Virus record (IMG/VR): IMGVR_UViG_3300046812_000114
Span: 1 to 25,272 of that record
Direction: 5' to 3' (one strand)
Length of the DNA stretch: 25,272 nt
DNA from: a virus
In this document: piece after piece, positions 2,214 through 20,889 of the stretch
How the letters are laid out: each line of letters starts with the position of its first letter
Numbering within the stretch: the first letter of the stretch is position 1
The notes under the pieces: generated by a model
What the model saw: the letters and a program-made list of their open reading frames with translations, nothing else
The model's database searches: none
Told to the model about the DNA's origin: nothing
Program-made: the position numbers and the translations under genes

Positions 2214-2374
2214 ATCTTAATTCCTTCTAAGAGTTGAGTTGCCCAATCCATACAGGAAAGGCATATAAAATCTAATTGCTCATCTACTTCTACAGTATAT
2301 AGAAAAGATAAATAATGGCAAATTGTGCAATGGTATCGACGACTTTTACTATTAAGTTGAGGTACAATTCTCAT
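2210..2374 (-). CDS. Small zinc-ribbon protein (54 aa)
   Basis: The minus strand reads ATG at 2372-2374 to TGA at 2210-2212. The product starts MRIVPQLNSKSRRYHCTIC and contains two CxxC pairs (C16/C19 and C38/C41) about 20 residues apart, the classic four-cysteine zinc ribbon, preceded by a basic stretch (KSRR). It overlaps the SNF2 helicase stop by 4 bases on one side and the next small zinc protein by 4 bases on the other. This ATGA-ATGA linkage plus the intact cysteine pairs makes it a convincing small gene. It may be an accessory factor of the helicase; that is inference from position. Confidence 0.72.
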   Translation of the reverse strand: MRIVPQLNSKSRRYHCTICHYLSFLYTVEVDEQLDFICLSCMDWATQLLEGIKI

Positions 2375-4125
2375 ATTTTATTGTTAACTACGTTTTCACA
2401 TAGTTCCTGTAGAAAATTCAAGTCAGTAGTTAAGTCTACTTCGTTACCCATTCCAGTTTCAAGTAGAATCTTTCTCTTATTCGTAACCATAGTATGAAAG
2501 AATTCGTCAATTGTGCCTTTAGCTATCATGTAGGTTACAGTTACGGCTGATTTCTGACCGTCACGATGAAATCTACATTCAAACTGTTCTTCGTCTGCAC
2601 TATTCCATTGACGTTCTAAAACAAGAGCTTGAGCACAGGTTTGAAGATTTAATCCAACCCCGCCGGCTTTAGTATTTACAACAAGTACGCGTGCCGCGCC
2701 ATTTGTGAAACGTCTTACAACGTCAGCTTTACCGTAAACATTATCTTCACCACTTAGTTCGAGAGATTTTATTCCAGCTTTTTGTAACGTCTGGAATAGA
2801 ATCTCTCTTACGCTCTTATGGTGAATGCCTACACTTAAGCTTTCGTCAGTAGATTCACAGAAATCTAAAATCCATTCAATTGCATTTTTACACTTTGCAA
2901 CTCCCGTTATAGCGCGAAGTTGGGCTAGCCAACCTAACATTTGTGAACTATCCGCGCCTGATTTGTTATCTCGTAACCAATTTGCGAATAGATCAATTGT
3001 TCGGTTATAAGTGTTCTTAATGTTTGGATCATCTATCTCTATTATCTGGAAGTCCCGAGTTAACGCCGGGAGATTCTTTAAAACATCGTGACGCTCGCGG
3101 CGAATAACCCAAGTAGATATTAGAGTTTTAAATTTATCAGCAACTAACGGATTCAATCTTTGATATGTTGTAACTGCGTTACCTGAACTATTCATTTTAG
3201 TTTCAGGTAAAAGCCATTTCTTTTTGAAATTATCTAGAGAATTAAAATACTGTGGCGCGAGTAAATTAAGAATTGTAAAATATTCACTAGCACGATTCTT
3301 AATTGGCGTACCACTTAATGCTATTTTATATTTAATTCCAGCTAATTCAATGAATTCAATCAAACCTTTTGTTCTTTTAGCTGACGGGTCTTTGAAGTTT
3401 TGAACTTCATCGACTATAACCGATTTAATACCGCAAGCTAAAAGTTTTTCTCTTATATCTTTCTTGGAAATCATATCCATAGATAAGATATAAAAGCCAA
3501 ATCCCGGTATTAGTTGTGCACGGCTAGTTACCGGAACACAAGTAATAAAATCTTTAGACGCCCATTTACTTATTTGATCCGCCCACTGAAATATTGTGGA
3601 AGATGGGACTAAAACGACGCAAGGTAGTGCTATTTGTTTATTTCGCCACATTGCGAGAATACCTTGAATAGTTTTACCTAATCCCATTGCGTCTGCGATC
3701 AAACAATTTAACTGCGTGTCTTCAGCGAATTTAATTCCTTCGCGTTGAAATTCATAAGCGGCTAAATTATTATCCCACGATTGAAAACGCGGATCGAAAT
3801 TTCCATAATCTACACTTGGATTAGAGGAAATACCTTTAACTAGTCCGCCGTCTGTAACCCAAGCGTCTAAAGAAATGTATTCTTCGGATAAAGAAGTCTT
3901 AATGTCTCTCGGCTCATTAACTATGCTTTTCAAGTTAATAGCTTCCACATATTCGCTAGCACTTTGTCTGCTTTCTTCCTTATCCGAAGAAACTTCGAAA
4001 CTAATCTTCTCCCTAACTTCCATGTGCCCGCACATCCACACATATCCAATTAGTTTTCCCATAGGGAATTCAGATTGAATTTTAGCGGGTTTACCGCATT
4101 TAGCACATTTAAGAGTTAGTTTCAT
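2371..4125 (-). CDS. SNF2-family (superfamily 2) DNA helicase/translocase
   Basis: A 584-residue ATP-dependent DNA translocase. A short N-terminal zinc-binding region (C7, C10, C32, H34) precedes the two RecA-like domains. Motif I is DAMGLGKT (145-152), motif II is DEVQ (239-242, in place of DEAH), and motif III is SGTP (271-274). The C-terminal domain has motif V NTKAGGVGLNLQ (484-495) and motif VI QFECRFHRDGQK (514-525), typical of SNF2/RapA-like enzymes. All catalytic positions look intact. Phages of several kinds carry compact SNF2 helicases, presumably for replication or for remodelling protein-DNA complexes. It is flanked by a zinc-finger coiled-coil gene and overlaps a zinc-ribbon gene. 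AAGGAT lies about 13 bases before the ATG. No nuclease domain is fused. Confidence 0.95.
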   Translation of the reverse strand: MKLTLKCAKCGKPAKIQSEFPMGKLIGYVWMCGHMEVREKISFEVSSDKEESRQSASEYVEAINLKSIVNEPRDIKTSLSEEYISLDAWVTDGGLVKGISSNPSVDYGNFDPRFQSWDNNLAAYEFQREGIKFAEDTQLNCLIADAMGLGKTIQGILAMWRNKQIALPCVVLVPSSTIFQWADQISKWASKDFITCVPVTSRAQLIPGFGFYILSMDMISKKDIREKLLACGIKSVIVDEVQNFKDPSAKRTKGLIEFIELAGIKYKIALSGTPIKNRASEYFTILNLLAPQYFNSLDNFKKKWLLPETKMNSSGNAVTTYQRLNPLVADKFKTLISTWVIRRERHDVLKNLPALTRDFQIIEIDDPNIKNTYNRTIDLFANWLRDNKSGADSSQMLGWLAQLRAITGVAKCKNAIEWILDFCESTDESLSVGIHHKSVREILFQTLQKAGIKSLELSGEDNVYGKADVVRRFTNGAARVLVVNTKAGGVGLNLQTCAQALVLERQWNSADEEQFECRFHRDGQKSAVTVTYMIAKGTIDEFFHTMVTNKRKILLETGMGNEVDLTTDLNFLQELCENVVNNKI

Positions 4126-4837: not shown

Positions 4838-5041
4838 TTACATCCAAGTTGAGAAAATCATTTTACCTGAATGAAAGATTGCATAACGATTTTTGAAAAG
4901 AGGATGTAACATATTAATAAATCTTGTTACATTCCATTCTTCTTTTTCATTCGGTCCACTTAAACAAACCAAATAAAATGCTACATCAGTATGTTTAAAT
5001 GATTTTTCTCTTGCTTCGTTGTAAGCTTCTGAATAAGTCAT
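4838..5041 (-). CDS. Hypothetical protein, first gene of the helicase operon (67 aa)
   Basis: A 67-residue protein starting MTYSEAYNEAREKSFKHTDV. It contains VAFYLVCLSGPNEKEEWN and looks like a small mixed alpha/beta domain; not recognised. CGGAG is placed about 10 bases before the ATG. The perfect TATAAT of the promoter unit at 5067-5125 lies about 30 bases upstream of the start. This makes it the first gene of the minus-strand operon that continues through the helicase and VWA genes. Confidence 0.78.
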   Translation of the reverse strand: MTYSEAYNEAREKSFKHTDVAFYLVCLSGPNEKEEWNVTRFINMLHPLFKNRYAIFHSGKMIFSTWM

Positions 5042-5066
5042 AGTTTTTTAACTCCGAAAGAAACAA

Positions 5067-5125
5067 ACCTTATTATAGAATTTCGAATTCCGGCCTCGCG
5101 CCTAGCGTTAAAGCTCTAATAAGGT
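5067..5125 (-). promoter_or_regulatory. Promoter unit 1: minus-strand TATAAT inside an inverted repeat
   Basis: On the minus strand a perfect TATAAT (5072-5077) is followed by AAGGTTTG and then the ribosome binding site of the 67-residue gene. A 9-bp inverted repeat, ACCTTATTA (5067-5075) and TAATAAGGT (5117-5125), spans the whole promoter, one arm overlapping the -10. Between the arms is a smaller palindrome GAATT-TCG-AATTC (5079-5091). No TTGACA-like -35 stands at the usual spacing. A second copy of the same design lies at 5247-5296. The role as promoter is inferred from the -10 match and the well-placed downstream start. Confidence 0.6.
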
Positions 5126-5145
5126 ACTGATTTATAGTTTAAAGG

Positions 5146-5220
5146 CTACTTTTGATAATAGATCAGGTTTACCAGGTTTATATAACTATTATCTTTCGCC
5201 TTTACGTGATTACATGACAT
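5146..5220 (-). CDS. Possible 24-residue leader or micro-protein
   Basis: The minus strand has GGAGGTGAT directly before an ATG at 5218-5220, the strongest Shine-Dalgarno match in the window, though only 3 bases separate GGAGGT from the ATG. The frame runs 24 codons (MSCNHVKAKDNSYINLVNLI, then YYQK) to TAG at 5146-5148. It lies about 30 bases downstream of promoter unit 2 and ends just before promoter unit 1. A regulatory leader peptide or a short phage effector are both possible. There is no homology information. The short spacing and small size keep confidence moderate. Confidence 0.45.
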   Translation of the reverse strand: MSCNHVKAKDNSYINLVNLIYYQK

Positions 5221-5246
5221 ATCACCTCCGGGATATTTAAAACTAA

Positions 5247-5296
5247 ACCTTATTATAAAGATTCGATCTTAAGCCTCTCGCTTTAAATAATAAGGT
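5247..5296 (-). promoter_or_regulatory. Promoter unit 2: second copy of the inverted-repeat promoter
   Basis: The minus strand carries TATAAT (5252-5257) followed by AAGGTTTAGTTT, nearly the same as promoter unit 1. The flanking arms ACCTTATTAT (5247-5256) and ATAATAAGGT (5287-5296) are a perfect 10-bp inverted repeat. The inner palindrome is AAGAT-TCG-ATCTT: it keeps the TCG centre of unit 1 but both arms have changed together, so pairing or symmetry is conserved rather than sequence. A conserved GCGAG/GGC block lies upstream of the -10 in both copies. It would drive the 24-codon ORF and possibly the whole operon. Confidence 0.6.
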
Positions 5297-5310
5297 AATT
5301 AACCTCCGTA

Positions 5311-5353
5311 AGATTCTTTTAAAACGTATTCCTATTCAGGAAATTAAGAATCT
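5311..5353. repeat. Third inverted repeat in the control region
   Basis: AGATTCTT (5311-5318) and AAGAATCT (5346-5353) are perfect 8-bp arms around an inner TTCC/GGAA hairpin. The design (outer stem plus inner hairpin) resembles the two promoter units next to it, but there is no TATAAT at the arm. It could be a protein-binding site or an RNA fold. Confidence 0.4.
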
Positions 5354-5588
5354 AAAAATCAAAGTTAATTAAATGTGCTACTTTTTAATAGTTGACCATT
5401 TTGGATCGGACCGAATGACGGTCTTCGATGCCGAAAACGGGCGTTCAAAAGGCACATAAGGACAGCATAAGGAAAGGTTAGGAGCATGTCAAGGACTATA
5501 TTTCCTTTGTTTTGAGAAATATACAGGGAATTTGAGAAAAAGTCTCTCTGGTCGTTTCGAGCGATCTCCCTAGCCTTGCTTTTGACCC
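5354..5588. other. Intergenic segment without a convincing gene
   Basis: The stretch holds a strong hairpin at 5405-5429 (ATCG-GACCG, loop AATGA, CGGTC-TT-CGAT) and a smaller CCG/CGG hairpin just after it. A 9-codon + strand ORF at about 5488 has AGGAG only 1 base before its ATG and is doubtful. A 76-codon minus-strand frame runs across the + strand promoter and has no ribosome binding site, so I treat it as chance. I see nothing else. Confidence 0.4.
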
Positions 5589-5617
5589 TTGACAAGCCCT
5601 TGTGTTTTCAGTAAGAT
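5589..5617 (+). promoter_or_regulatory. Sigma-70-type promoter for the 5780 gene
   Basis: TTGACA (5589-5594), a 17-base spacer, then TAAGAT (5612-5617). The -35 is a perfect consensus match, the -10 matches 4 of 6, and the spacing is optimal. The start would be near 5624. Arms CCTTGCT (5574-5580) and AGCAAGG (5650-5656) form a 7-bp inverted repeat around the promoter. The promoter faces the gene at 5780 across a leader of about 155 bases that contains a terminator-like hairpin. Confidence 0.8.
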
Positions 5618-5636
5618 ATAAACGTCTTCTCTTAAT

Positions 5637-5668
5637 GCCTCTTGCTGAGAGCAAGGTAGGGCTTTTTT
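5637..5668 (+). terminator. Terminator-like hairpin in the leader (candidate attenuator)
   Basis: CTTGCT-GAG-AGCAAG (5641-5655) forms a tight stem, extended with small bulges by GCC (5637-5639) and GGGC (5659-5662), and is followed directly by six T (5663-5668). It stands only about 15 bases after the predicted transcription start and before the gene. If active, most transcripts would stop after about 45 nt, so expression of the downstream gene would depend on read-through. Confidence 0.55.
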
Positions 5669-5678
5669 GTTCTATTCT

Positions 5679-5711
5679 CTTAAGTATATATATATCATAT
5701 ATATATATAAG
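5679..5711. repeat. AT palindrome (TA repeat)
   Basis: Eleven bases of alternating TA (5685-5695), a single C, then eleven bases of alternating AT (5697-5707), flanked by CTTA and TAAG. This is a nearly perfect 33-base palindrome of pure A+T in its core. It could form a cruciform, a weak RNA hairpin or an easily melted element, as found at some replication origins. No accompanying iterons are seen. Confidence 0.6.
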
Positions 5712-5724
5712 ACTCAAAACACAG

Positions 5725-5757
5725 GGTGCCCCGACGGGTACCCCCCTATAGGGGTAC
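5725..5757 (+). promoter_or_regulatory. Two mutually exclusive hairpins upstream of the 5780 gene
   Basis: Hairpin 1 pairs GGT-g-CCC (5725-5731) with GGG-t-ACC (5736-5742). Hairpin 2 pairs GTACCCC (5738-5744) with GGGGTAC (5751-5757). They share bases 5738-5742, so only one can form at a time. The ribosome binding site AAGAGGT (5769-5774) follows 12 bases later. The arrangement suggests a leader RNA that can switch; this is inference from pairing only. Confidence 0.4.
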
Positions 5758-5779
5758 TTTCAAAGAAAAGAGGTCCTAA

Positions 5780-6085
5780 ATGGCTCGCGGTCCACTACTT
5801 AGCTCAAATAGCAAGCTTCGCAACCGCCGCTTAGTTGTCGGCCAACCGCTTCTTAAAGCTTATTTAAAAGAAAACATAGAATTTCTTCGGTCCCAAGGTT
5901 TCCTTCCAAAATATAAATGTCCTAATTGCGGAAAATTACATAAAGGATGGGAAACTATGGAACCATGTGCTATGGCTTTTATTGGTAGGTATATTTCTCA
6001 ATTAGATAAAGAGGAAAGAAAAAAGGCAATTGAGACTGCGAAATCCCAATTGCCTGAAAAGATACGGAAGAAACTAAAGTTTTAA
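5780..6085 (+). CDS. Small zinc-finger protein of unknown function (101 aa)
   Basis: A basic 101-residue protein starting MARGPLLSSNSKLRNRRLVV. A knuckle CPNCGKLH (C47, C50, H54) and C63 form a likely zinc site in the middle. The C-terminus is a charged helix rich in K and E ending KIRKKLKF. The size, basic ends and zinc site suggest a nucleic-acid-binding phage protein. AAGAGGT lies 5 bases before the ATG. The gene is alone in its orientation here, behind a promoter with an attenuator-like leader. It meets the minus-strand 150-residue gene stop to stop with no base between them. Confidence 0.8.
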   Translation: MARGPLLSSNSKLRNRRLVVGQPLLKAYLKENIEFLRSQGFLPKYKCPNCGKLHKGWETMEPCAMAFIGRYISQLDKEERKKAIETAKSQLPEKIRKKLKF

Positions 6086-6538
6086 TTACTCTTGCGAAGC
6101 AATTGCCTTTGCGGATGCATCTTTCAATTGCTGCAAAAGAACTGGAATCTGACGAATCTGTTCAAGAATCGCTTCTGTTTGTGCATTCCATTCTTCCGCA
6201 GTTGCCTTGCGTTTATCTTCTGCTTTAACCATTGCAGAAAACATCGGCATTTCGCGCCACGGTTTAATAAAGTTCATAACCGTCTCGCGATCGAATCCGC
6301 CACTAATACCTGCGGATTCTTTTGCCTTCGCCAAAGCTTCGCGTCGAATCAAATAATTCGCGGCATCAACAAAGTTATTGATGCGATTCAATTCAACCAA
6401 TGCATTTTCATTTGTCGTTACAGGCGTAAAGCTTACTTCAACTTCCTTTTCAACTGACTTCAAATTTTCATCGAAGCCTGTATAAGTTCGTTTGAAAGTT
6501 GTTGGTTCAATCGTTGCGGTCGTTTCTGTCTTAGACAT
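6086..6538 (-). CDS. Hypothetical protein (150 aa)
   Basis: A helical, charged protein starting MSKTETTATIEPTTFKRTYT. The first 45 residues look strand-rich or flexible; residues 45-150 are helical with glutamine-rich amphipathic repeats near the end (EAILEQIRQIPVLLQQLKDA). Not recognised. AGGAG stands 8 bases before the ATG. A strong minus-strand promoter with a direct repeat over it (6568-6621) lies immediately upstream, suggesting controlled, possibly high expression. Its stop abuts that of the convergent 5780 gene. Confidence 0.82.
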   Translation of the reverse strand: MSKTETTATIEPTTFKRTYTGFDENLKSVEKEVEVSFTPVTTNENALVELNRINNFVDAANYLIRREALAKAKESAGISGGFDRETVMNFIKPWREMPMFSAMVKAEDKRKATAEEWNAQTEAILEQIRQIPVLLQQLKDASAKAIASQE

Positions 6539-6567
6539 TTTGTAATCTCCTAATTAGGGAAGTTTGG

Positions 6568-6621
6568 GAACAAGCTCCTTCGAGCTAGAACAAGCTTAAC
6601 TTATGAGGCTAAACTTGTCAA
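6568..6621 (-). promoter_or_regulatory. Sigma-70 promoter with operator-like direct repeat
   Basis: On the minus strand TTGACA (6616-6621), a 17-base spacer and TAAGCT (6593-6598) precede the 150-residue gene. A 9-bp direct repeat GAACAAGCT (+ strand reading) occurs at 6568-6576 and 6588-6596. The two copies are 20 bp apart, about two helical turns, and one lies over the -10. Between them AGCTC-CTTC-GAGCT can form a small hairpin. A regulator bound to both copies on one DNA face would block the promoter. The binding protein is unknown. Confidence 0.75.
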
Positions 6622-6627
6622 GTGAAT

Positions 6628-6807
6628 TTAGTTGATGCTTTGTAAAATCACAGGCACTTTTAAAAGACTTGGGACGTAGATTGAAACTTTATCCAGCCCA
6701 ATTTCTTCGAAACCAAGCCAAGCCTCGAAATCCAGAATCGTCAGTTCGCAATCCGAACAAAACTCATTAATCGCGAAGCCGTGAATGCAATAGTTAAATG
6801 TTTTCAT
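6628..6807 (-). CDS. Small cysteine-containing protein (59 aa)
   Basis: The minus strand reads ATG at 6805-6807 to TAA at 6628-6630. The product starts MKTFNYCIHGFAINEFCSDC. C7, H9, C17 and C20 could form a compact zinc site. The remainder is hydrophobic with EAWLGFEEIGLDKVSIYV and has no membrane segment. AAAAGG lies 7 bases before the ATG, and the gene overlaps the upstream 51-residue ORF by 14 bases. It ends just short of the -35 of the promoter for the 150-residue gene. Function unknown. Confidence 0.6.
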   Translation of the reverse strand: MKTFNYCIHGFAINEFCSDCELTILDFEAWLGFEEIGLDKVSIYVPSLLKVPVILQSIN

Positions 6808-6949
6808 ATCTTAGCCTTTTTAAAAGGTTAATGATTGTAATCAGCAAACCATTGTTTGTTTCAAGTTCAACTTTATAAGCGTAAAGTAGCATTTGATTGC
6901 GCTTATATTGTTGTTCTATTTCATCAAAGTTAAAGGTTTGTTTGCTCAT
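6794..6949 (-). CDS. Small hypothetical protein (51 aa)
   Basis: The minus strand reads ATG at 6947-6949 to TAA at 6794-6796. The product begins MSKQTFNFDEIEQQYKRNQM and continues as an amphipathic helix ending LLKRLRYENI. AAGG and GAGA precede the start. Its ATG shares one base with the TAA of the 18-codon ORF upstream (TAATG), and its end overlaps the next gene. The tight coupling and good initiation site suggest a real gene; function unknown. Confidence 0.55.
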   Translation of the reverse strand: MSKQTFNFDEIEQQYKRNQMLLYAYKVELETNNGLLITIINLLKRLRYENI

Positions 6950-7005
6950 TATCTCTTTACCTTTTTCTTTGCATCCAAAATAACTCGTAATTCATACACT
7001 GTCAT
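6949..7005 (-). CDS. Possible 18-residue peptide at the start of the small-gene operon
   Basis: The minus strand has GGAGG 7 bases before an ATG at 7003-7005. The frame runs MTVYELRVILDAKKKVKR and then TAA, overlapping the following ATG by one base. The strong ribosome binding site and coupling suggest that it is translated. It may be a leader peptide that delivers ribosomes to the 51-residue gene, or a tiny basic protein. Confidence 0.45.
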   Translation of the reverse strand: MTVYELRVILDAKKKVKR

Positions 7006-7026
7006 ATTCTATCCTCCGTTTTAGTC

Positions 7027-7097
7027 GAAATAACTCTGCCATATAGTGAATATGGTAAAGCTTGCTAAGCTTCTATGTTTACTCACAGAGTTATTCC
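7027..7097 (-). promoter_or_regulatory. Folded 5' leader of the small-gene operon (three-way junction)
   Basis: On the minus strand an outer stem of 12 bp (7086-7097 with 7027-7038, one G.U pair) encloses two hairpins: AAGCTT-AGC-AAGCTT (7058-7072) and CCATAT-TCACT-ATATGG (7039-7055). The outer stem extends further on the minus strand, by a G.U and a G-C pair, than on the + strand, supporting this orientation. The promoter at 7109-7138 would start RNA near 7102, so this fold is the first thing transcribed. The GGAGG of the 18-codon ORF follows about 13 bases after it. The shape resembles a riboswitch or protein-binding leader, but the sequence matches no riboswitch class I know. Confidence 0.5.
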
Positions 7098-7108
7098 CTA
7101 ATTGAGAA

Positions 7109-7169
7109 TTTATAACGCTATGCTTGGTACATGTTCAATTATCTCATGTACTCTTGAATTCAGCGTTAT
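7109..7169 (-). promoter_or_regulatory. Minus-strand promoter embedded in an inverted repeat
   Basis: TTGAAC (7133-7138), an 18-base spacer and TATAAA (7109-7114) on the minus strand point at the small-gene operon. The promoter lies within an 8-bp inverted repeat ATAACGCT (7112-7119) / AGCGTTAT (7162-7169), one arm overlapping the -10, and a nested one GTACATG (7127-7133) / CATGTAC (7145-7151). The layout is the same as in the promoter units at 5.07 and 5.25 kb: -10 overlapped by one arm, the other arm upstream. Confidence 0.55.
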
Positions 7170-7662
7170 GTATTTGGTAGGCTAGTGATTTTAAAAAGAA
7201 CCCGTAATCGCTGTGCGTTTTGGCGCAAAGTTTTTATCCCGAAGGATTTAGACTAGCGTAATGGATATACGGGAATACTCAAATACTCCCTGTATACCGT
7301 ATTAATGCATCATACAGGATGCTATGCCTACCGCAGTAACCGCTAACACTGCATTCATTCGCCTCGTAGTGGCACGTACTTAGCGCAGCGCGTGTTACCG
7401 CAACTATTAGACTGTGCCGGACTACTTCGGCTAATCCTACCTTATCGCTGGACCGCTTCAATAACCGTACTGGCATTATTTGAGACTGCGACTACCAGTA
7501 TCGTCCGTTTATCAGGTAAGGGCCTTTTCGCTGCTTGCCCCGGTCTACATCGTTCAGACGGGAATGTATTAGCAAGCTATGTGCCAAACAAAGTATCGTG
7601 TGTTATCAATGATATACAGTTACCCATCTTATCCCTAGATGACATTAATTGTCACTAGTTTT
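7170..7662. ncRNA. Candidate large structured non-coding RNA (GC-rich, many nested stems)
   Basis: No credible gene lies here, yet GC is 52% at 7321-7560 in an otherwise AT-rich genome. Perfect or near-perfect stems follow one another: GCTAGT 7181-7186 / ACTAGC 7252-7257 enclosing TGCG/CGCA (7214-7227) and ATCC/GGAT (7236-7247, a C(UUCG)G tetraloop if read on the minus strand); TATACGGGA 7266-7274 / TCCCTGTATA 7287-7296; TAACAC 7344-7349 / GTGTTA 7392-7397; TACTGG 7468-7473 / CCAGTA 7495-7500; GCTTGC 7533-7538 / GCAAGC 7572-7577 enclosing CCC-g-GTCT / AGAC-GGG. The size is like that of ROOL or GOLLD RNAs known from phages, but I cannot match a consensus. Strand is unresolved: G.U pairs at 7467/7501 favour +, the UUCG loop favours minus. 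Confidence 0.45.
7626..7655 (-). promoter_or_regulatory. Possible minus-strand promoter over the first TGACA palindrome
   Basis: GTGACA (7650-7655), an 18-base spacer and TAAGAT (7626-7631) read toward the GC-rich island. The -35 overlaps the palindrome at 7640-7654, so a protein bound there would block it. In the opposite direction, CTAG-A-TGACA / TGTCA-CTAG (7635-7658) followed by TTTT resembles a weak + strand terminator. Either reading bounds a structured RNA at this point. Confidence 0.35.
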
Positions 7663-7766
7663 ATTCATTTTGCCTGTTTTTTATGCATTTTGTGAGCTAA
7701 GCCGTTGAATAGGCTGCATGAATATGATGTGACATTATTTGTCATATGAAATGACATTATTTGTCA
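7640..7766. promoter_or_regulatory. Three copies of a TGACA-N5-TGTCA palindrome
   Basis: TGACATTAATTGTCA at 7640-7654 and TGACATTATTTGTCA at 7730-7744 and 7752-7766. The arms are identical in all three and the centre differs by one base. The last two are 22 bp apart, about two helical turns. Repeated perfect dyads in a gene-free region are typical operators for a dimeric regulator; the XRE protein encoded 280 bp away is one candidate. Nothing links them directly. Confidence 0.6.
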
Positions 7767-7990
7767 CATGCTGTTATTATCGCTACGATCGTTTATAGGC
7801 TGCGTTTGACTTTCCTTGATACTTTGTATCAGGTCCAGTTCGGTTATCGCTGTACGTCGATTGTAGCGCGATTGCGGCCATACTCACGAGTTCGATCATA
7901 CCGCAGTCTAGTCTATATCCTAGTCCTAGTCCTAGTCTCGTATTCCGTATCTCGTATTATAGTCCTAGTCTCGTAGCCAGTTCCCCCGCT
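7767..7990. other. Gene-free structured stretch with tandem repeats
   Basis: Hairpin TGATAC-TTT-GTATCA (7817-7831), then GATTGCGG (7870-7877) pairing with CCGCAGTC (7901-7908) through one internal G.U if read on the + strand. At 7919-7936 CCTAGT is repeated three times, and TAGTCCTAGTCTCGTA occurs perfectly twice (7927-7942 and 7960-7975). A 71-codon + strand frame across this part has no ribosome binding site and a repeat-driven composition, so I do not accept it as a gene. It may be a second structured RNA, an extension of the first, or a recombination or replication site. Confidence 0.4.
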
Positions 7991-8044
7991 TAGTACGTCA
8001 GGTAATCTAATATTTCAAACCTAAAAAGCAGAAACACAACTCTT

Positions 8045-8290
8045 TTAAATCGGAAATTTACAAAAATAAAATGTCTCATATTTAATATTATTCTTTTGTT
8101 CCATCCAGTAAACTAATTTAAGATACGAATCTAAATCAATTCGGCGTCCGTCCTTAATTCGCGAAAGCATTGATCGGGATATTCCACTTTCCTTTTCAAC
8201 TTCACGATAGGTTAAATTAAAGTCTTTTATTGTGTTAAATACCATAAAACTAAAGTGAACATAATCTAAGCCAGGACATTGATTTCTCAT
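8045..8290 (-). CDS. XRE-type helix-turn-helix regulator (81 aa)
   Basis: A small DNA-binding protein. LTYREVEKESGISRSMLSRIKDG (residues 26-48) is a typical XRE helix-turn-helix, with the recognition helix around SRSMLSRIK. The frame is open up to a TTG at 8356, but that TTG is the -35 of a clear promoter (8328-8356), so transcription starts inside the longer frame. I therefore place the start at ATG 8288-8290, with GAGGAG about 15 bases upstream. The protein lacks a dimerisation or peptidase domain. It faces away from the late operon and could be an early repressor or a control protein for the palindromes at 7640-7766. Confidence 0.82.
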   Translation of the reverse strand: MRNQCPGLDYVHFSFMVFNTIKDFNLTYREVEKESGISRSMLSRIKDGRRIDLDSYLKLVYWMEQKNNIKYETFYFCKFPI

Positions 8291-8327
8291 AAAAATAAAA
8301 TTTTTCTCCTCGGATTTTTCTGTCTCG

Positions 8328-8356
8328 ATAGTAAAACAAAACAATGTAAAAGTCAA
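8328..8356 (-). promoter_or_regulatory. Sigma-70 promoter of the XRE regulator
   Basis: On the minus strand TTGACT (8351-8356), a 17-base spacer and TACTAT (8328-8333): five of six matches at the -35 and, with standard spacing, a good -10. It decides the start codon of the XRE gene, because the upstream TTG start would lie inside the -35. No obvious palindrome overlaps it. Confidence 0.75.
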
Positions 8357-10501: not shown

Positions 10502-10633
10502 ATGCCATTTACAAAACAAGGTAATGGAAAGTACAAGAGTCCTTCAGGTAAGACATTTACTAAGAAACAAGTAGAACTTTATTACGCTACTGATGGGTTT
10601 AAGAATAAACCTAAAGCAAAAAAAGGAAAGTAA
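10502..10633 (+). CDS. Small basic protein (43 aa)
   Basis: AAAGGAG (10491-10497) lies 4 bases before the ATG at 10502-10504; the stop shares a base with the next ATG (TAATG). The product MPFTKQGNGKYKSPSGKTFT continues KKQVELYYATDGF and ends in a lysine-rich tail. Small basic phage proteins of this pattern are common and unassigned; nucleic-acid binding is possible. Confidence 0.68.
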   Translation: MPFTKQGNGKYKSPSGKTFTKKQVELYYATDGFKNKPKAKKGK

Positions 10634-10992
10634 TGTGGGTTTATTTTCAATCTTCCGGAAACCTAATTCATAATTCCCTCTTCATAGCAAAAGGGTATTC
10701 CGGAAAAGGCATATTTAAAGATAATCCGTATGCTCAGATTAGACCGTTTCAAGGACCAATCCCGCGCGGAATATACAAGGTAGGAACGGCGTTTAACTCG
10801 GATAAACATGGTCCTTTTTGTTTACCATTAGAACCTAGTGGATATAACGAAATGTTTGGGCGAAACGAATTTTTAGTTCATGGAGATAGTGCGGACCATC
10901 CAGGAGACGCTTCCGAAGGATGTGTGATAATGCCACGTAATGTACGTGAAGCAATTGCGAATGATGAAGATAAGTATTTGGTTGTATGTTAA
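10633..10992 (+). CDS. DUF2778/L,D-transpeptidase-like protein (candidate lysis enzyme)
   Basis: A 119-residue protein. FLVHGDSADHPGDASEGCVIMP gives H83, S95 and C97, the catalytic arrangement of YkuD-like L,D-transpeptidase folds as found in the DUF2778 family. GPIPRGIYKVG (41-51) is a second conserved element of that family. Related proteins exchange D-amino acids on, or cut, peptidoglycan stem peptides. Placed directly before a membrane protein (7-base overlap), it may form a lysis cassette, acting on the cell wall; no signal peptide is visible, so export would need the holin-like partner. Virion-associated wall processing is an alternative. Family call is good, role inferred. Confidence 0.78.
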   Translation: MWVYFQSSGNLIHNSLFIAKGYSGKGIFKDNPYAQIRPFQGPIPRGIYKVGTAFNSDKHGPFCLPLEPSGYNEMFGRNEFLVHGDSADHPGDASEGCVIMPRNVREAIANDEDKYLVVC

Positions 10993-13068: not shown

Positions 13069-14744
13069 ACTTTCAAGGAATCCTAAAACAATCTACTTCA
13101 GTTAATATAACTGTATTAATTATTGATTCAGCAGATCATATTACAGGTAAAACTGGAGCTACTCTTACAATTTATTTAACTAAAGCTGGCGGCACTCCTG
13201 CTTCGATTGCTCCTACCGTAACTGAATTAGATTCTACAAACGTTAAAGGCTTATATAAACTTGCATTATCTACAACCTCTTGGACTGATACATTAGGTGA
13301 AATGCAATTACATATAACTGGAACTGGATGTGATCCGGCGGATTATAAATGGTTAGTTTCTGCAAGATTAATTGATGATTTGGCATTTCCTGCTACTTCT
13401 GGTAGATCAGTGGTTGTTGATGCATCTGGTTTAGTAGATGCGAATATGGTTAAAGCTGGACCAACAGGTAGTGGAACTGCACAAACTGCTGGAGATATTT
13501 ATTCCAAAGTTACAGGATTAACATTTACAGTAGCTAATCAAGTTGATGTTAATGTTAAAGATTGGAATGGAACCGGTGTATCTGCTGTAACTGCTGGAAT
13601 ACCTGATGTAAATACTAAAAATATTAATAATGTTGCTGCTGCAACTCCTGGTGCTTCAGGAGGTATTTTAATTAGTGGAAGTAATGCTGGAACTACCACA
13701 TTTGGAGCATTAACAGTTACAGGAGTTACTACTTTAACTGGTAATTTTATCTTATCTGATGGTATTACAATATCTGCACCTTCCACTGGAAATAGAGCAG
13801 GAATAACAATTACTGGTAATGGCACTGGCGCAGGTGTCTCGATTACATCAGGTAGCGGTGCTTCAGGTAATGGATTAGATTTAATATGTAATTCTACCAA
13901 TGGTTCTGGATTAAGTTCCGCGGGTAAAGGTACTGGTAATGGATTCAAGATTACCAGTATTAGTGGTGATGGTATAAATATCACTGTATCTACTTCTGGA
14001 CATGGAATTGCAACCTCAGCACAAGGTAATGCAAAGCATGGTATATATGGGTTAGCTAATGGTGGAACTACTGCTAGTGGTATTAGAGGTACTACTTTAG
14101 GTGGTGCGTCTGGAGCAGGAATATATGCGGATACTGGTGGTAATGCAGGGGTTGGAATATATGCTATAGGTGGAGGCAGTGGTGCAAATGGTGCAGGAAT
14201 TAAAGCAACCGGTGGAACAGATTTTTCTGGTATTGAATGTGTTGGAACTGGTACAGGATCAGGTATAATTGCTACTGGCGGCGTATCTGCCGGTGGAGAT
14301 GGATTAAAATGTGTTGCAGGTGGTGGAGTTGATTTACGTGCGAATATTACTGGTAATGTTACTGGTAATTTATCTGGTTCAGTTGGTTCTGTCACGTCAG
14401 GAGTAACAGTTACAACTAACAATGATAAGACAGGATATACAATTGCAGTCGGTGGAATTGGAGCAACATCTTTCGCTGCAAATGCAATTGATTCTGCGGC
14501 GCTCGCGACTTCTGCGGCTAATGAAATTGCAGATGCTTTCTTAGATAGAGCAGACGCAATTGAAACTGGTTTAACTATTCGTGGCGCATTTAGATTGAAT
14601 AGTGCTGCACTTGCAGGTGTATTATCTGGTGCTGCAACTACGACAGTAACTATTAATAACGCAGTAGCAAATACTAAAGCACGTCTAACTGCAACAGTAG
14701 ATGCAAATGGAAATAGAAGTGCAGTTTCTACTGACGTAACATAA
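13065..14744 (+). CDS. Glycine/threonine-rich repeat protein, probable tail fibre (559 aa)
   Basis: The N-terminal 120 residues form a compact strand-rich domain (MNFQGILKQSTSVNITVLII). From about 220 to 440 the sequence is built of short glycine-rich repeats such as GITITGNGTGAGVSI, SGIIATGG and HGIYGLANGGT, the spacing expected of a parallel beta-helix or glycine-rich fibre shaft. A more ordinary C-terminal part follows (AIDSAALATSAANEIADAFL). This fits a virion fibre or adhesin. The DNA there is repetitive, which could favour slippage or recombination. It overlaps the upstream gene by 4 bases. Confidence 0.72.
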   Translation: MNFQGILKQSTSVNITVLIIDSADHITGKTGATLTIYLTKAGGTPASIAPTVTELDSTNVKGLYKLALSTTSWTDTLGEMQLHITGTGCDPADYKWLVSARLIDDLAFPATSGRSVVVDASGLVDANMVKAGPTGSGTAQTAGDIYSKVTGLTFTVANQVDVNVKDWNGTGVSAVTAGIPDVNTKNINNVAAATPGASGGILISGSNAGTTTFGALTVTGVTTLTGNFILSDGITISAPSTGNRAGITITGNGTGAGVSITSGSGASGNGLDLICNSTNGSGLSSAGKGTGNGFKITSISGDGINITVSTSGHGIATSAQGNAKHGIYGLANGGTTASGIRGTTLGGASGAGIYADTGGNAGVGIYAIGGGSGANGAGIKATGGTDFSGIECVGTGTGSGIIATGGVSAGGDGLKCVAGGGVDLRANITGNVTGNLSGSVGSVTSGVTVTTNNDKTGYTIAVGGIGATSFAANAIDSAALATSAANEIADAFLDRADAIETGLTIRGAFRLNSAALAGVLSGAATTTVTINNAVANTKARLTATVDANGNRSAVSTDVT

Positions 14745-14907: not shown

Positions 14908-15149
14908 ATTTTGTTTTGATTTATTTACTAATTGATAGAAAAGACTCTGTTCCAATATATGTTCACAACTCAAATGATGAACTATTTGCTCGGTGTATTC
15001 TTTTAGTAGAAGAACAAAATCAAAATCAAGAATCTGGTGAATATAAACGTCATCAAGTATATGCTCAGTTAATTAAAGAGTTTCCATTAACTAAGAGATC
15101 TGAAATAGCGTATTGTATTGAGGAAGTAATTCAAAGTTTAACTCAATGA
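14868..15149 (+). CDS. Membrane-anchored protein (93 aa)
   Basis: One N-terminal transmembrane segment (MGIVLVLVTSLLLNFVLIYL), then a polar domain with QNQNQESGEYKRHQVYAQLI ending EEVIQSLTQ. The frame is open further upstream to a TTG at 14838, but the ATG at 14868 follows AGGAG by 10 bases and puts the membrane segment at the very N-terminus, so I choose it. The one-pass layout resembles spanins or small inner-membrane anchors. It overlaps the terminase gene by 4 bases (ATGA). Confidence 0.7.
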   Translation: MGIVLVLVTSLLLNFVLIYLLIDRKDSVPIYVHNSNDELFARCILLVEEQNQNQESGEYKRHQVYAQLIKEFPLTKRSEIAYCIEEVIQSLTQ

Positions 15150-16753
15150 ATCTTGATATCAATTTTAGGAACGAAGAGCAACAACAGTTTTTCTGGCATC
15201 GTCAGAGGAATGGTTTATTCGATGGTGGATTTAATAATGGTAAATCTTACGTCGGATGTCAGCGCGCTTTCGTTCATTTAATGACGTTTCCTTATTACGG
15301 AATGGTTATCGGGCGCCAAGAATATAAAGTTCTTAAAGCGACCACAATGAAAACTTTCTTTAAAATTTGTCCTCCTGAGTTGATTCTTACACATGATAAA
15401 CAAGACGGATATACAGTATTAAAGAATGGTTCATTTATTTATTGGATGCACCTCGATGATGTCGATGAACAAGATTTACGTGGTCTTGAAATTAATTCTG
15501 CACTTTTAGATCAAGCTGAAGAAATAAGAGAAAGTATATATTTAGTACTTGATTTCCGCGTTGGACGTTGGGATAAAGCACAAGTCCCGTTATGGCTATT
15601 ACGGACTCAAATGACTCATTATGATTTCGAACAAAGCCATAAGATTGAAAGAGATGATCCTAAAAAATTAGAATCCTTCATTAACACGCATACTTTATGG
15701 CCGCGTCATCCTAAATGGAAACAGTTCTTAGTTCCAAATTACATGGATTGCCTTTGTAATCCTAGTGATGATGATGAATTCCATTGGACTTATCGGTATT
15801 ATAATCCGGCTTCATTAGAAAAGAGACCAGATCATTTCTATGTTCATAGAGCATCTGATGAATCATTAACTGACTCAAGATCATTTCAACAAGCACTTTT
15901 ACGTGACCCTGAATGGGTTGCAAAATATATTGAAGGTAAGACTGGATCTCCTAAAGCACAGATACATAGGTTAGATCCAATGTCATTGATACAACCTGAC
16001 GATTATCCAAAAGAAGATTTTGACGCTTTCCTCGCGTTGCTTAAAAGTAAAGCGGGTTTATATCGCATTCTCGATCATGGGGAAACAGGTATTACTTGCT
16101 GTCTTTGGGCTGCGTCTATCAATAATATCCACGTGTTCTACCGTGAGTATTATATATCCTCCACGCTCATTTCTGCAAATAGAATAAACATTTCTGATCT
16201 TTCTGGAGATGAAGAATTCTCCGGGGATTATGCCGATCCTCAGATATTTAAGAAAACACAACAAACGGTTAGTGGAGTTAAATCTGGATTTAATTCTGTT
16301 GCAGAAGAATATGCAGAAACAGATATATCTGATGCACCTCCTCTTCATTGGTCCGCGGCGGATAATAACGAATTAGCTACGAGAAATAGAATTAGCGAGT
16401 TATTACTTCTATCTCCTCGTTGCATGCACCCTATTACAAAAATCTCTCCTGCTCCTGCCATTTACTTCGTAAAGAAAGCTAAGACTTATCCTTTTGGTTG
16501 TGAGAAGGCACCGACACAATTACAACAACAAAGACGTTTATTACTTGGTTCTGATAATGGAAAGAACATCTATTCAGACGAACGGGATGAAACAATTGCC
16601 GATCATGCATATGATTGTGTAAGATATCTTATCTCAATGCATTCTAGTGGTAAAGCTGTAGTTAAAAAGAAACCACCTAGAATGTCATTTGAATATTATC
16701 AACAAATAATGAAGCGGCGACCTAGAATGATTTCTGCAAGTGTAGAAGACTAG
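15146..16753 (+). CDS. terL: Terminase large subunit (ATPase and nuclease)
   Basis: The 535-residue DNA-packaging motor. Walker A is GGFNNGKS (27-34), Walker B with the catalytic acidic pair is LLDQAEE (120-126). The RNase H-like nuclease acidic residues fit D310 (RILDHG), D361 or D364 (GDYADP) and D490 (DHAYD). Length and domain order are normal. The protein docks on the portal, pumps DNA into the prohead and cuts the concatemer. It starts inside the stop of the preceding gene (ATGA) and is followed after one base by the portal gene, the usual head-module order. The packaging type (cos, pac or repeats) cannot be told from this. Confidence 0.96.
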   Translation: MNLDINFRNEEQQQFFWHRQRNGLFDGGFNNGKSYVGCQRAFVHLMTFPYYGMVIGRQEYKVLKATTMKTFFKICPPELILTHDKQDGYTVLKNGSFIYWMHLDDVDEQDLRGLEINSALLDQAEEIRESIYLVLDFRVGRWDKAQVPLWLLRTQMTHYDFEQSHKIERDDPKKLESFINTHTLWPRHPKWKQFLVPNYMDCLCNPSDDDEFHWTYRYYNPASLEKRPDHFYVHRASDESLTDSRSFQQALLRDPEWVAKYIEGKTGSPKAQIHRLDPMSLIQPDDYPKEDFDAFLALLKSKAGLYRILDHGETGITCCLWAASINNIHVFYREYYISSTLISANRINISDLSGDEEFSGDYADPQIFKKTQQTVSGVKSGFNSVAEEYAETDISDAPPLHWSAADNNELATRNRISELLLLSPRCMHPITKISPAPAIYFVKKAKTYPFGCEKAPTQLQQQRRLLLGSDNGKNIYSDERDETIADHAYDCVRYLISMHSSGKAVVKKKPPRMSFEYYQQIMKRRPRMISASVED

Positions 16754-18832: not shown

Positions 18833-19756
18833 ATGTTACTAGGATTATATCGTAGTCCAGTTGAAGGTTCTGGCGAAAGTAAAGAAGCAAGTCTTACAAA
18901 ATCTATCGAAGCTGCTGCTATTACAGCTGCAAAAGAGATGAAACTTGAAATTAAAGAAGATGAAGTTAAAGACGAGAAAAAAGAAGAAGTAAAAGAAGAG
19001 AAAAAGGAAGAGAAGAAAGAAGTAAAAGAAGAAGTTAAAAAAGAAGAAAAAAAAGAAGAAGACGAATTAGATCCAGAAAAATTAGCCGCGGCAAAACAAC
19101 TTTTTAAAGTTCTTTCAAGTCCTAATGCCGATGTTCAGCGCGCCGGATTAGAGGCATTAGCTAGAGCCGCAGGATTAAAGTTAGAGAAGATAGAAACTAA
19201 GGCTGAAGTTAAGGAAGCTAAGGAATCTCTATTAGACCTTCTTAAAGGTGGGCTTGGTGAATATGATTTCCTTTCAGAGAAGTTAGCTCCGATACTTGAA
19301 AAAGCTTTAAAGCAAATGGTTGCGGAAGAAACAAAGGATCTTAGAGAGACTGTAAAAACAAGAGAAGAACGCGAAGTCAAAGATCAAATCAAGATTGGTT
19401 ATGACGCTGCATTTGCTAAATATGACAATTCTTCTGAACTTCAGGAAGAAGTCCTTAAAGTTATGGATGAGTTTAAACCAACAGGAAAGATGTCGCATGA
19501 AGCATATTTCAATTCTTGTTTATTAATTGCTGCCGACCGTAAGGATATTGAATTAAAAAAAGTTTCTGGTAAAGCTGAAACCAAAGAAACTAAAGAAGCA
19601 AAAGAGAAAAAGATTGAAAAATCTAGAAATGATGTCGGATCCCGCGTGGGATCAGAACGTGCGGCTGAAGTTAAAGTACAAATTAAGCCGTCACATGGCA
19701 AAGGGTTAAACGCAGCAGTTCAGTCTGCGATAGATACATTAGCTAACGAAAAATGA
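18833..19756 (+). CDS. Probable capsid scaffolding protein (307 aa)
   Basis: A highly charged helical protein immediately upstream of the major capsid gene, the usual place for scaffolding. Residues 38-80 are almost pure K, E and D with valine; the middle (81-225) is helical (LAAAKQLFKVLSSPNADVQR) and the C-terminus is basic with KKIEKSRNDVGSRVGS. Scaffolds are typically helical, charged and poorly conserved. A fused protease is not evident. GGAG precedes the ATG by 6 bases. The gene overlaps the capsid gene by 4 bases. Confidence 0.75.
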   Translation: MLLGLYRSPVEGSGESKEASLTKSIEAAAITAAKEMKLEIKEDEVKDEKKEEVKEEKKEEKKEVKEEVKKEEKKEEDELDPEKLAAAKQLFKVLSSPNADVQRAGLEALARAAGLKLEKIETKAEVKEAKESLLDLLKGGLGEYDFLSEKLAPILEKALKQMVAEETKDLRETVKTREEREVKDQIKIGYDAAFAKYDNSSELQEEVLKVMDEFKPTGKMSHEAYFNSCLLIAADRKDIELKKVSGKAETKETKEAKEKKIEKSRNDVGSRVGSERAAEVKVQIKPSHGKGLNAAVQSAIDTLANEK

Positions 19757-20889
19757 GTACAATTACATTCGGTAATACTTCTAATCCTTCTAATATTTCG
19801 CAATACATGGATAGTGTATTCGGTTTATCCGTTGCGAATTATCGGAAGGAATTAACAGACAATATTGGCGCTACGAATTCATTCCTTGCTGAAATTTTAA
19901 AAGGTGATGCGTATGAAAGTGCAGACGGAGGTTCTTGGATTCAGGAACCATTGATGTATGCATTGGCGCCGAGTGATTCATATGATGGATATGACGAATT
20001 ATCCACATTACCCACGGACGGTGTAACTGATGCTGTGTATCAATGGCGTCAGTTAGCTTCACCTATTGTTTACAATATGCGTGAAGTTATCTTAAATCAA
20101 CATCGTATTGTTGATATCGTTAAGACACGTATTAAGCAATCTGAGATGGGAATTCAGGAAGGATTTGCTCAGTCATTAAGTTGGGGAAATTCTGTAAACG
20201 GTGGTGATCTTTGGGACCCCAAAGTATCCTCAGTTAACGGATCTAACAACATTGAACCATTAAGTGAGTTTGTTAGATTCGATCCTACCTCATCTACAGA
20301 TCCTACGGTTGGTAATATTGACCAATCTACGGCAGCAAATAGTTGGTGGCGTAATCGTACCAAGCAAAGTGCTGCAAATGATTATGTTACATTTATTCTC
20401 GAATTAGAGAATATCTATAATCAAACCGCGCTTGGTTCCGGTGGTCCGCCTAATTTGATATTGATGGATCAAGTGTCATACGAATTATTCGTTATGGCCT
20501 TCTTCTTCCGATATCGTATTATGCCTGGAGATGCACCAACGGATTTCCCGTTTGAAGCCAAGAAATTTAAGAATGCGCTTGTCGTTATGGATGATAAGGT
20601 TCCTGACTATTATAGTAACCTTGCTCCTACATCCCAGAACGTCGGTGGTTTAAGTTCTGGTTTAACCTACGGCTCAGCTATACTTCTTAATACGAAGTTC
20701 TTCAAGCTTCGTTATCATCCCGACCGCGATTGGGAAATGTTAGAAGACGAAAGCGGAAAGAAATTCGCTAAGCCTATTAACGGAGATAGTCGCGTTGGTC
20801 ACGTTGCATGGATGGGTAATTTAACATGCAATAATCGTCGTAAACAAGGTGTTCTAGGCCATATTGCTAGAACAATGACCGCTAATTAA
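19753..20889 (+). CDS. Major capsid protein, HK97-fold type (378 aa)
   Basis: Starts MSTITFGNTSNPSNISQYMD. Features include the early helix SVANYRKELTDNIGATNSFL and a strand-rich core (EPLMYALAPSDSYDGYDELS). Later parts LILMDQVSYELFVMAFFF and KFKNALVVMDDKVPDYY are typical of the capsid A-domain and P-domain of podovirus-like HK97 folds. Size and position after the scaffold fit. No N-terminal delta-domain is present; scaffold is encoded separately. High expression is suggested by the strong terminator placed after the next gene. Confidence 0.88.
   Translation: MSTITFGNTSNPSNISQYMDSVFGLSVANYRKELTDNIGATNSFLAEILKGDAYESADGGSWIQEPLMYALAPSDSYDGYDELSTLPTDGVTDAVYQWRQLASPIVYNMREVILNQHRIVDIVKTRIKQSEMGIQEGFAQSLSWGNSVNGGDLWDPKVSSVNGSNNIEPLSEFVRFDPTSSTDPTVGNIDQSTAANSWWRNRTKQSAANDYVTFILELENIYNQTALGSGGPPNLILMDQVSYELFVMAFFFRYRIMPGDAPTDFPFEAKKFKNALVVMDDKVPDYYSNLAPTSQNVGGLSSGLTYGSAILLNTKFFKLRYHPDRDWEMLEDESGKKFAKPINGDSRVGHVAWMGNLTCNNRRKQGVLGHIARTMTAN

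Follow-up and report, generated by a model that had tools for sequence, protein, structure and literature searches.

ROOL and GOLLD are RNAs of phages and prophages that often lie near tRNA islands, display covariation, and assemble into cages (PMC12286853), and their tRNA neighborhood is frequent but not obligatory (PMC12286853). The window analyzed here was the whole 25,272-base IMG/VR record of an uncultured tailed phage, and its stretch 7170-7662 had been flagged in an earlier note as a possible large structured phage RNA. The gene-free region around this stretch resembled ROOL and GOLLD in being large, non-coding, several hundred nucleotides long, and of phage or prophage origin, but it differed from them in having no covariance-model match, no tRNA neighbors, and no sequence conservation even between relatives. 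With ARRPOF and other replication-associated plasmid RNAs it had in common that a candidate structured RNA adjoins a possible origin, but it gave no Rfam match, and its origin role is putative. With lambda-type immunity/early control regions it shared divergent operons, palindromic repeats, and a neighboring helix-turn-helix gene, but its palindromes were located downstream of this gene, a long GC-rich core was inserted, and repressor binding is only putative. The prohead RNA of phi29-type phages reportedly drifts in sequence while keeping its fold, which offers a precedent for such a phage RNA; however, phi29-type pRNA is about 174 nt long and terminal, while the region in the window was internal, spanned about 1 kb, and displayed no detectable common fold.

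Kinship with ROOL, GOLLD, OLE, HEARO, or ARRPOF, the families named in the earlier note, was not supported: an Rfam cmscan of the window returned no match at E 1, and a search of 6950-8060 at E 10 retrieved none of these five families, the only hit being an unrelated PreQ1 at E 4.9. Rfam searches of the related loci L010, L011, L041, and L061 disclosed no large-RNA family, and ARAGORN detected tRNA genes neither in the window nor in 16 related loci. The region was not assigned to ROOL/GOLLD, as none of their testable features was found. A free-standing ornate RNA of this kind, namely, an assembling RNA, would suit a phage genome, a GC-rich and gene-free stretch of several hundred nucleotides, and the well-defined minus-strand ensemble described below, but the lack of Rfam matches and of tRNA genes, together with an expected complex conserved fold that was undetectable between relatives, made it very unlikely. 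Weak Rfam matches to miRNAs in the related phage G001 (IMGVR_UViG_3300012917_000003; terminase 62% identical to that of the window) were discarded, since they corresponded to long hairpins with scores far under the curated thresholds.

The window encoded a large terminase (15146-16753), a capsid protein (19753-20889), and an SNF2 helicase (2371-4125, minus strand). Cultured phages showed no DNA similarity to it, and terminase and capsid relatives had <30% identity. The genes left of about 7 kb ran mostly leftward and those right of 8.4 kb rightward, and thus 7170-7662 was located at a divergence point between two operons: a leftward early operon on the helicase side and a rightward operon of structural genes. 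This stretch was the left-centre part of a larger gene-free unit, in which end hairpins were followed by a GC-rich core, then by three TGACA-N5-TGTCA palindromes, and lastly by an array of short repeats with a CCCCC motif. The features were as follows:

6949-7005, minus strand: first of the tiny leftward ORFs on the downstream side of the core (MTVYELRVILDAKKKVKR), read from the sequence; GGAGG stood at 7013-7017
7020-8030, unstranded: gene-free control region as a natural unit, with no ORF of at least 90 aa between 6539 and 8044 and with syntenic gene-free regions in relatives
7029-7095 (arms 7029-7038 and 7086-7095), unstranded: strong end hairpin AATAACTCTG / CAGAGTTATT; 7025-7174 had z -4.4 on plus and -6.0 on minus
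7107-7174, unstranded: second end hairpin, an inverted repeat with arms AATTTATAACGCT / AGCGTTATGTATT
7174-7334, minus strand: multibranched domain with GGUAGGC/GCCUACC as its closing stem and, on minus, a hairpin capped by a cUUCGg tetraloop; z -4.1 on minus and -4.3 on plus
7321-7560, unstranded: GC peak of 52.1%, the top 240-base window of the contig, with a local fold z of about 0
7626-7655, minus strand: promoter-like GTGACA-18-TAAGAT overlapping the first palindrome (9 of 12)
7640-7654, unstranded: operator-like palindrome TGACATTAATTGTCA, a TGACA-N5-TGTCA copy
7730-7744, unstranded: palindrome TGACATTATTTGTCA, a TGACA-N5-TGTCA copy
7751-7780, plus strand: promoter-like ATGACA-18-TATTAT (10 of 12), which overlapped the third palindrome and had TG ahead of its second hexamer
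7752-7766, unstranded: palindrome TGACATTATTTGTCA, a TGACA-N5-TGTCA copy
7908-7978, unstranded: iteron-like array built of short CTAGTC and TCTCGTA repeats; such an array preceded the CCCCC motif in seven phages
7981-7987, unstranded: TTCCCCC motif, a C-run at the matching position after the array in seven phages
8012-8030, unstranded: 19 bp identical to G001 (ATTTCAAACCTAAAAAGCA), at equal distance from the C-run in the window and G001
8045-8356, minus strand: small helix-turn-helix protein that is a candidate to bind the palindromes (phrog_1728, E 2e-4; PF01381, E 3e-4, 21.2 bits, below the cut-off of 23)

Two further observations concerned the rightward genes: the protein encoded at 10633-10992 carried a Tlde1 domain (PF10908, 50.4 bits) within the phage gene cluster, and AAG-rich tandem repeats at 18953-19066 encoded a lysine/glutamate-rich stretch of the protein 18833-19756, which directly preceded the capsid gene in a scaffold-like position.

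The sequence comparison was applied to seven phages, namely, that of the window, G001, L061, L011, L041, L054, and L059. At the divergence point, all seven harbored an array of short repeats that differed from phage to phage, with CCCCC (mostly CCCCCAA) immediately after it, and in each of them the repeat content left of the C-run exceeded that of shuffled sequences (p 0.000-0.046); a short-repeat array at a fixed position, as is typical of iterons, was thus present in 7/7. The array plus C-run was the strongest conserved feature and lay outside 7170-7662. It is probably a replication origin or regulatory hub, and in this uncultured phage lineage it marks a candidate for an origin or a switch. 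A ColE1-like RNA II primer was considered and set aside since, by our own reasoning, the polarity of the G/C runs did not fit. Occurrences of the 19-mer in five other contigs, obtained by a pattern scan, were taken as chance. Just right of the C-run motif, L041 (about 4845-4890) and L053 (about 679-723) contained a CACAGA tandem repeat of differing copy number, while these two contigs were otherwise near-identical.

TGACA-N5-TGTCA occurred three times in the contig against 0.03 expected, and the three near-identical palindromes adjoined the small helix-turn-helix gene, whose protein would probably bind them as operators. From the promoter-like site at the first palindrome, leftward transcription would begin near 7619, and G001 likewise had a leftward promoter-like ATGTCA-17-TATAAT beside its palindromes (L010 10389-10361); promoter-like matches in the region as a whole numbered 17 versus 15.0 expected, i.e., not above chance. 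On the leftward side of the core, tiny ORFs and a Shine-Dalgarno-like sequence were read by eye in the window, G001, and L061, so that an RNA from the core could be a long leader instead of a free RNA.

The GC content of 7321-7560, which the earlier note had counted by hand as 52%, was 0.521, the contig maximum at 240 bases, with the next distinct peaks being 0.475 at 14103 and 0.471 at 7763; the entire stretch 7170-7662 had 0.444 versus 0.366 for the contig. The further claim of no credible ORF was likewise borne out. The longest ORFs of the core encoded 88 aa (GTG start, plus strand) and 65 aa (minus strand), and their presence would allow the core to be a long mRNA for an unrecognised short protein, but neither had a PHROG match, and the cores of the window, G001, and L061 shared no ORF beyond chance-level short matches, which left this explanation hardly likely at all.

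The stretch 7170-7662 contained eight perfect stems of at least 6 bp (shuffle mean 6.2; 20 of 60 shuffles had as many) and one of at least 7 bp (shuffle mean 1.6); the chain of inverted repeats noted earlier was therefore real in its stems but not above shuffles in their number. A weak excess appeared across 7020-8019, where seven stems of at least 7 bp compared with 3.3 in shuffles, a count reached in 3 of 60. Relative to dinucleotide shuffles, 7170-7662 folded with z -1.2 (plus) and -2.0 (minus) and 7020-8019 with -3.9 and -7.1, respectively, the latter pair from only 20 shuffles. Local scans placed the fold signal in 7025-7174, 7174-7334, and 7625-7774 (the palindromes), while the GC-rich middle 7325-7624 folded like shuffled sequence (z about 0). 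16S rRNA, used as control, also gave z near 0 in the same 150-nt local-window test, and thus a flat z was no evidence against an RNA. The multibranched domain 7174-7334, whose boundaries were picked after the fold was seen, was the sole part of 7170-7662 clearly better than shuffles (0 of 200 folded as well), and it folded equally well on either strand. The large structured RNA of the earlier note was supported in part, by a gene-free, locally GC-rich setting and one domain folding far better than shuffles, but it matched no known family, and the stretch as a whole folded only slightly better than shuffles.

Relatives were gathered with the terminase, helicase, and other anchors, and the GC-rich, gene-free stretch recurred at the matching place in two related phages: (i) G001, with a gene-free region at L010 9600-10530 and a core GC of 0.532 in a genome part of 0.327; and (ii) L061, with a gene-free stretch at 6330-7330 between the same genes and a core GC of 0.423 in 0.350. 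Such a core left of the array was present in only three of the seven phages (these two and the window); it was absent from L041, L054, and L059, though the array was present there. Strong hairpins occupied the core ends in the window and relatives, and the hairpin 7029-7095 had counterparts at the same core end in G001 (L010 9644-9741) and, by eye, in L061 (about 6344-6402). The whole region of G001 had z -8.9 on plus and -8.6 on minus (20 shuffles), while its core alone had -0.9 and -1.5. Local alignment of the three cores disclosed no significant sequence similarity; the whole regions of the window and G001, and of G001 and L061, beat mononucleotide shuffles, but the cores alone did not, and the G001-L061 similarity came at least partly from the repeat/hairpin part. 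A single-sequence covariance model of the domain 7174-7334 found no counterpart in relatives, and scans with the terminase, the helicase, P116 (8464-8814), and P150 (6086-6538) found no diverged core homologue beyond G001 and L061. Covariation was uninformative because the only alignable close homologues (L055, L056, L057, and L061) were practically identical, and the window and G001 were not reliably alignable.

These comparisons also bear on whether the core is sequence that turns over rapidly, has no function, or was acquired recently (decayed genes or spacer), with stems arising by chance. Stem counts and fold energy near those of shuffles for 7170-7662, the lack of core homology even with a phage of 62% identical terminase, and the absence of the core from three array-bearing phages would all be expected of such a sequence. 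This explanation is nevertheless unlikely, given the contig-wide GC peak, the matching place of the core in three phages, the z of about -4 for 7174-7334, and the rarity with which phage genomes keep a spacer of about 0.6 kb.

As to the strand, UNCG/GNRA tetraloops on stems of at least 4 bp were counted. The whole region of the window had three on minus versus 0.64 expected (p 0.010) and none on plus, and that of G001 had the same counts (three versus 0.64 on minus, p 0.023; none on plus), while the 16S control had 12 versus 1.6 in sense and none in antisense. L061 displayed no tetraloop excess over its region and no tetraloop in its core, and pooling over the cores alone reduced the evidence to p 0.042. 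In the window, the minus strand of the core combined an MFE z of -2.0 with an ensemble diversity below that of all but 0 of 40 shuffles, as low as expected of a defined fold and as seen for 16S sense, while its plus strand resembled 16S antisense in the ensemble test; the ensemble diversity of G001 did not favor minus. The minus strand was richer in A and G in the cores of both phages. Tetraloops, purine bias, and ensemble definition thus lean weakly to a leftward RNA.

The minus-strand tetraloop and ensemble bias argues against a region acting only as DNA, i.e., an origin plus operator array with cruciform-capable hairpins and the GC-rich core as a structural spacer; likewise, the 450- to 600-nt GC-rich core kept in three phages was longer than a spacer needs to be. 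Such a DNA-only role would agree with the array and C-run being the sole elements conserved across the seven phages, with the operator-like palindromes, with several hairpins folding equally well on both strands, and with the unconserved core sequence, and we consider it a somewhat improbable but serious alternative.

The reading tentatively preferred here, for which we would claim a little less than an even chance, is a divergent control/origin region with a core that specifies, in the leftward direction, a rapidly evolving structured RNA or long leader; an RNA role of the core is plausible. The flagged stretch would be the core of a control region of about 1 kb where leftward and rightward operons diverge, and the core (about 7020-7625) would most likely be transcribed leftward from the promoter-like site beside the palindromes. 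The product, a structured RNA of about 500-600 nt, would have strong hairpins at its end and would either continue into the tiny leftward ORFs or be cut short just ahead of them; it may be a long leader with structure or a non-coding RNA in its own right. A bolder proposal is doubtful: a new class of structured phage RNAs that are large (about 500-700 nt), read leftward, hypervariable in sequence, and sited beside an origin-like array, with the fold kept and possibly with lineage-wide use of structured and self-cleaving RNA. If the core is an RNA, current covariance-model searches would miss this phage RNA, since its drift outpaces that of the neighboring proteins: the terminases of the window and G001 were about 60% identical, while the core RNA candidate was unalignable. 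If the core is not an RNA, the case would show that stems within a GC-rich island free of genes do not suffice for calling an ornate RNA in an AT-rich phage.

The possible lineage-wide use of structured or self-cleaving RNA in control regions was raised by a hammerhead candidate in L061. Hammerheads of type II are common among bacteria, and phage intergenic regions harbor some hammerheads (PMC3088659). The L061 candidate (6028-6087, minus strand), textbook-like by its motifs, contained a complete CUGAUGA plus GAAA core and a GUC cleavage site; its three stems were predicted to fold exactly as a hammerhead (z -4.4, 0 of 200 shuffles), it scored 26.9 bits against Rfam RF02276 (gathering score 37), and it was located just upstream of the homologue of the window gene 6086-6538. 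No hammerhead core motif was found in the region of the window or G001. L061 additionally harbored a tRNA-like minihelix (6750-6800, minus strand) with a 7-bp acceptor-like stem UCGGUAG/CUACCGA on a 5-bp T-arm (loop UUCGAUU) and with no D or anticodon arm; a tRNA remnant was rejected, as the window and G001 had no convincing counterpart.

A second gene-free stretch was located upstream of the leftward helicase operon (window 5042-5779, L010 6975-8122, L011 3515-4520, and L041 6560-7130), and it was partly structured in the window (5328-5779, z about -4) and G001. That of the window contained divergent TTGACA-17 promoter-like sites (minus 5492-5464 and plus 5589-5617) and a 37-nt repeat in two related copies at a distance of 180 nt, while that of G001 contained a 53-nt inverted repeat with AAAGGACTTA units.
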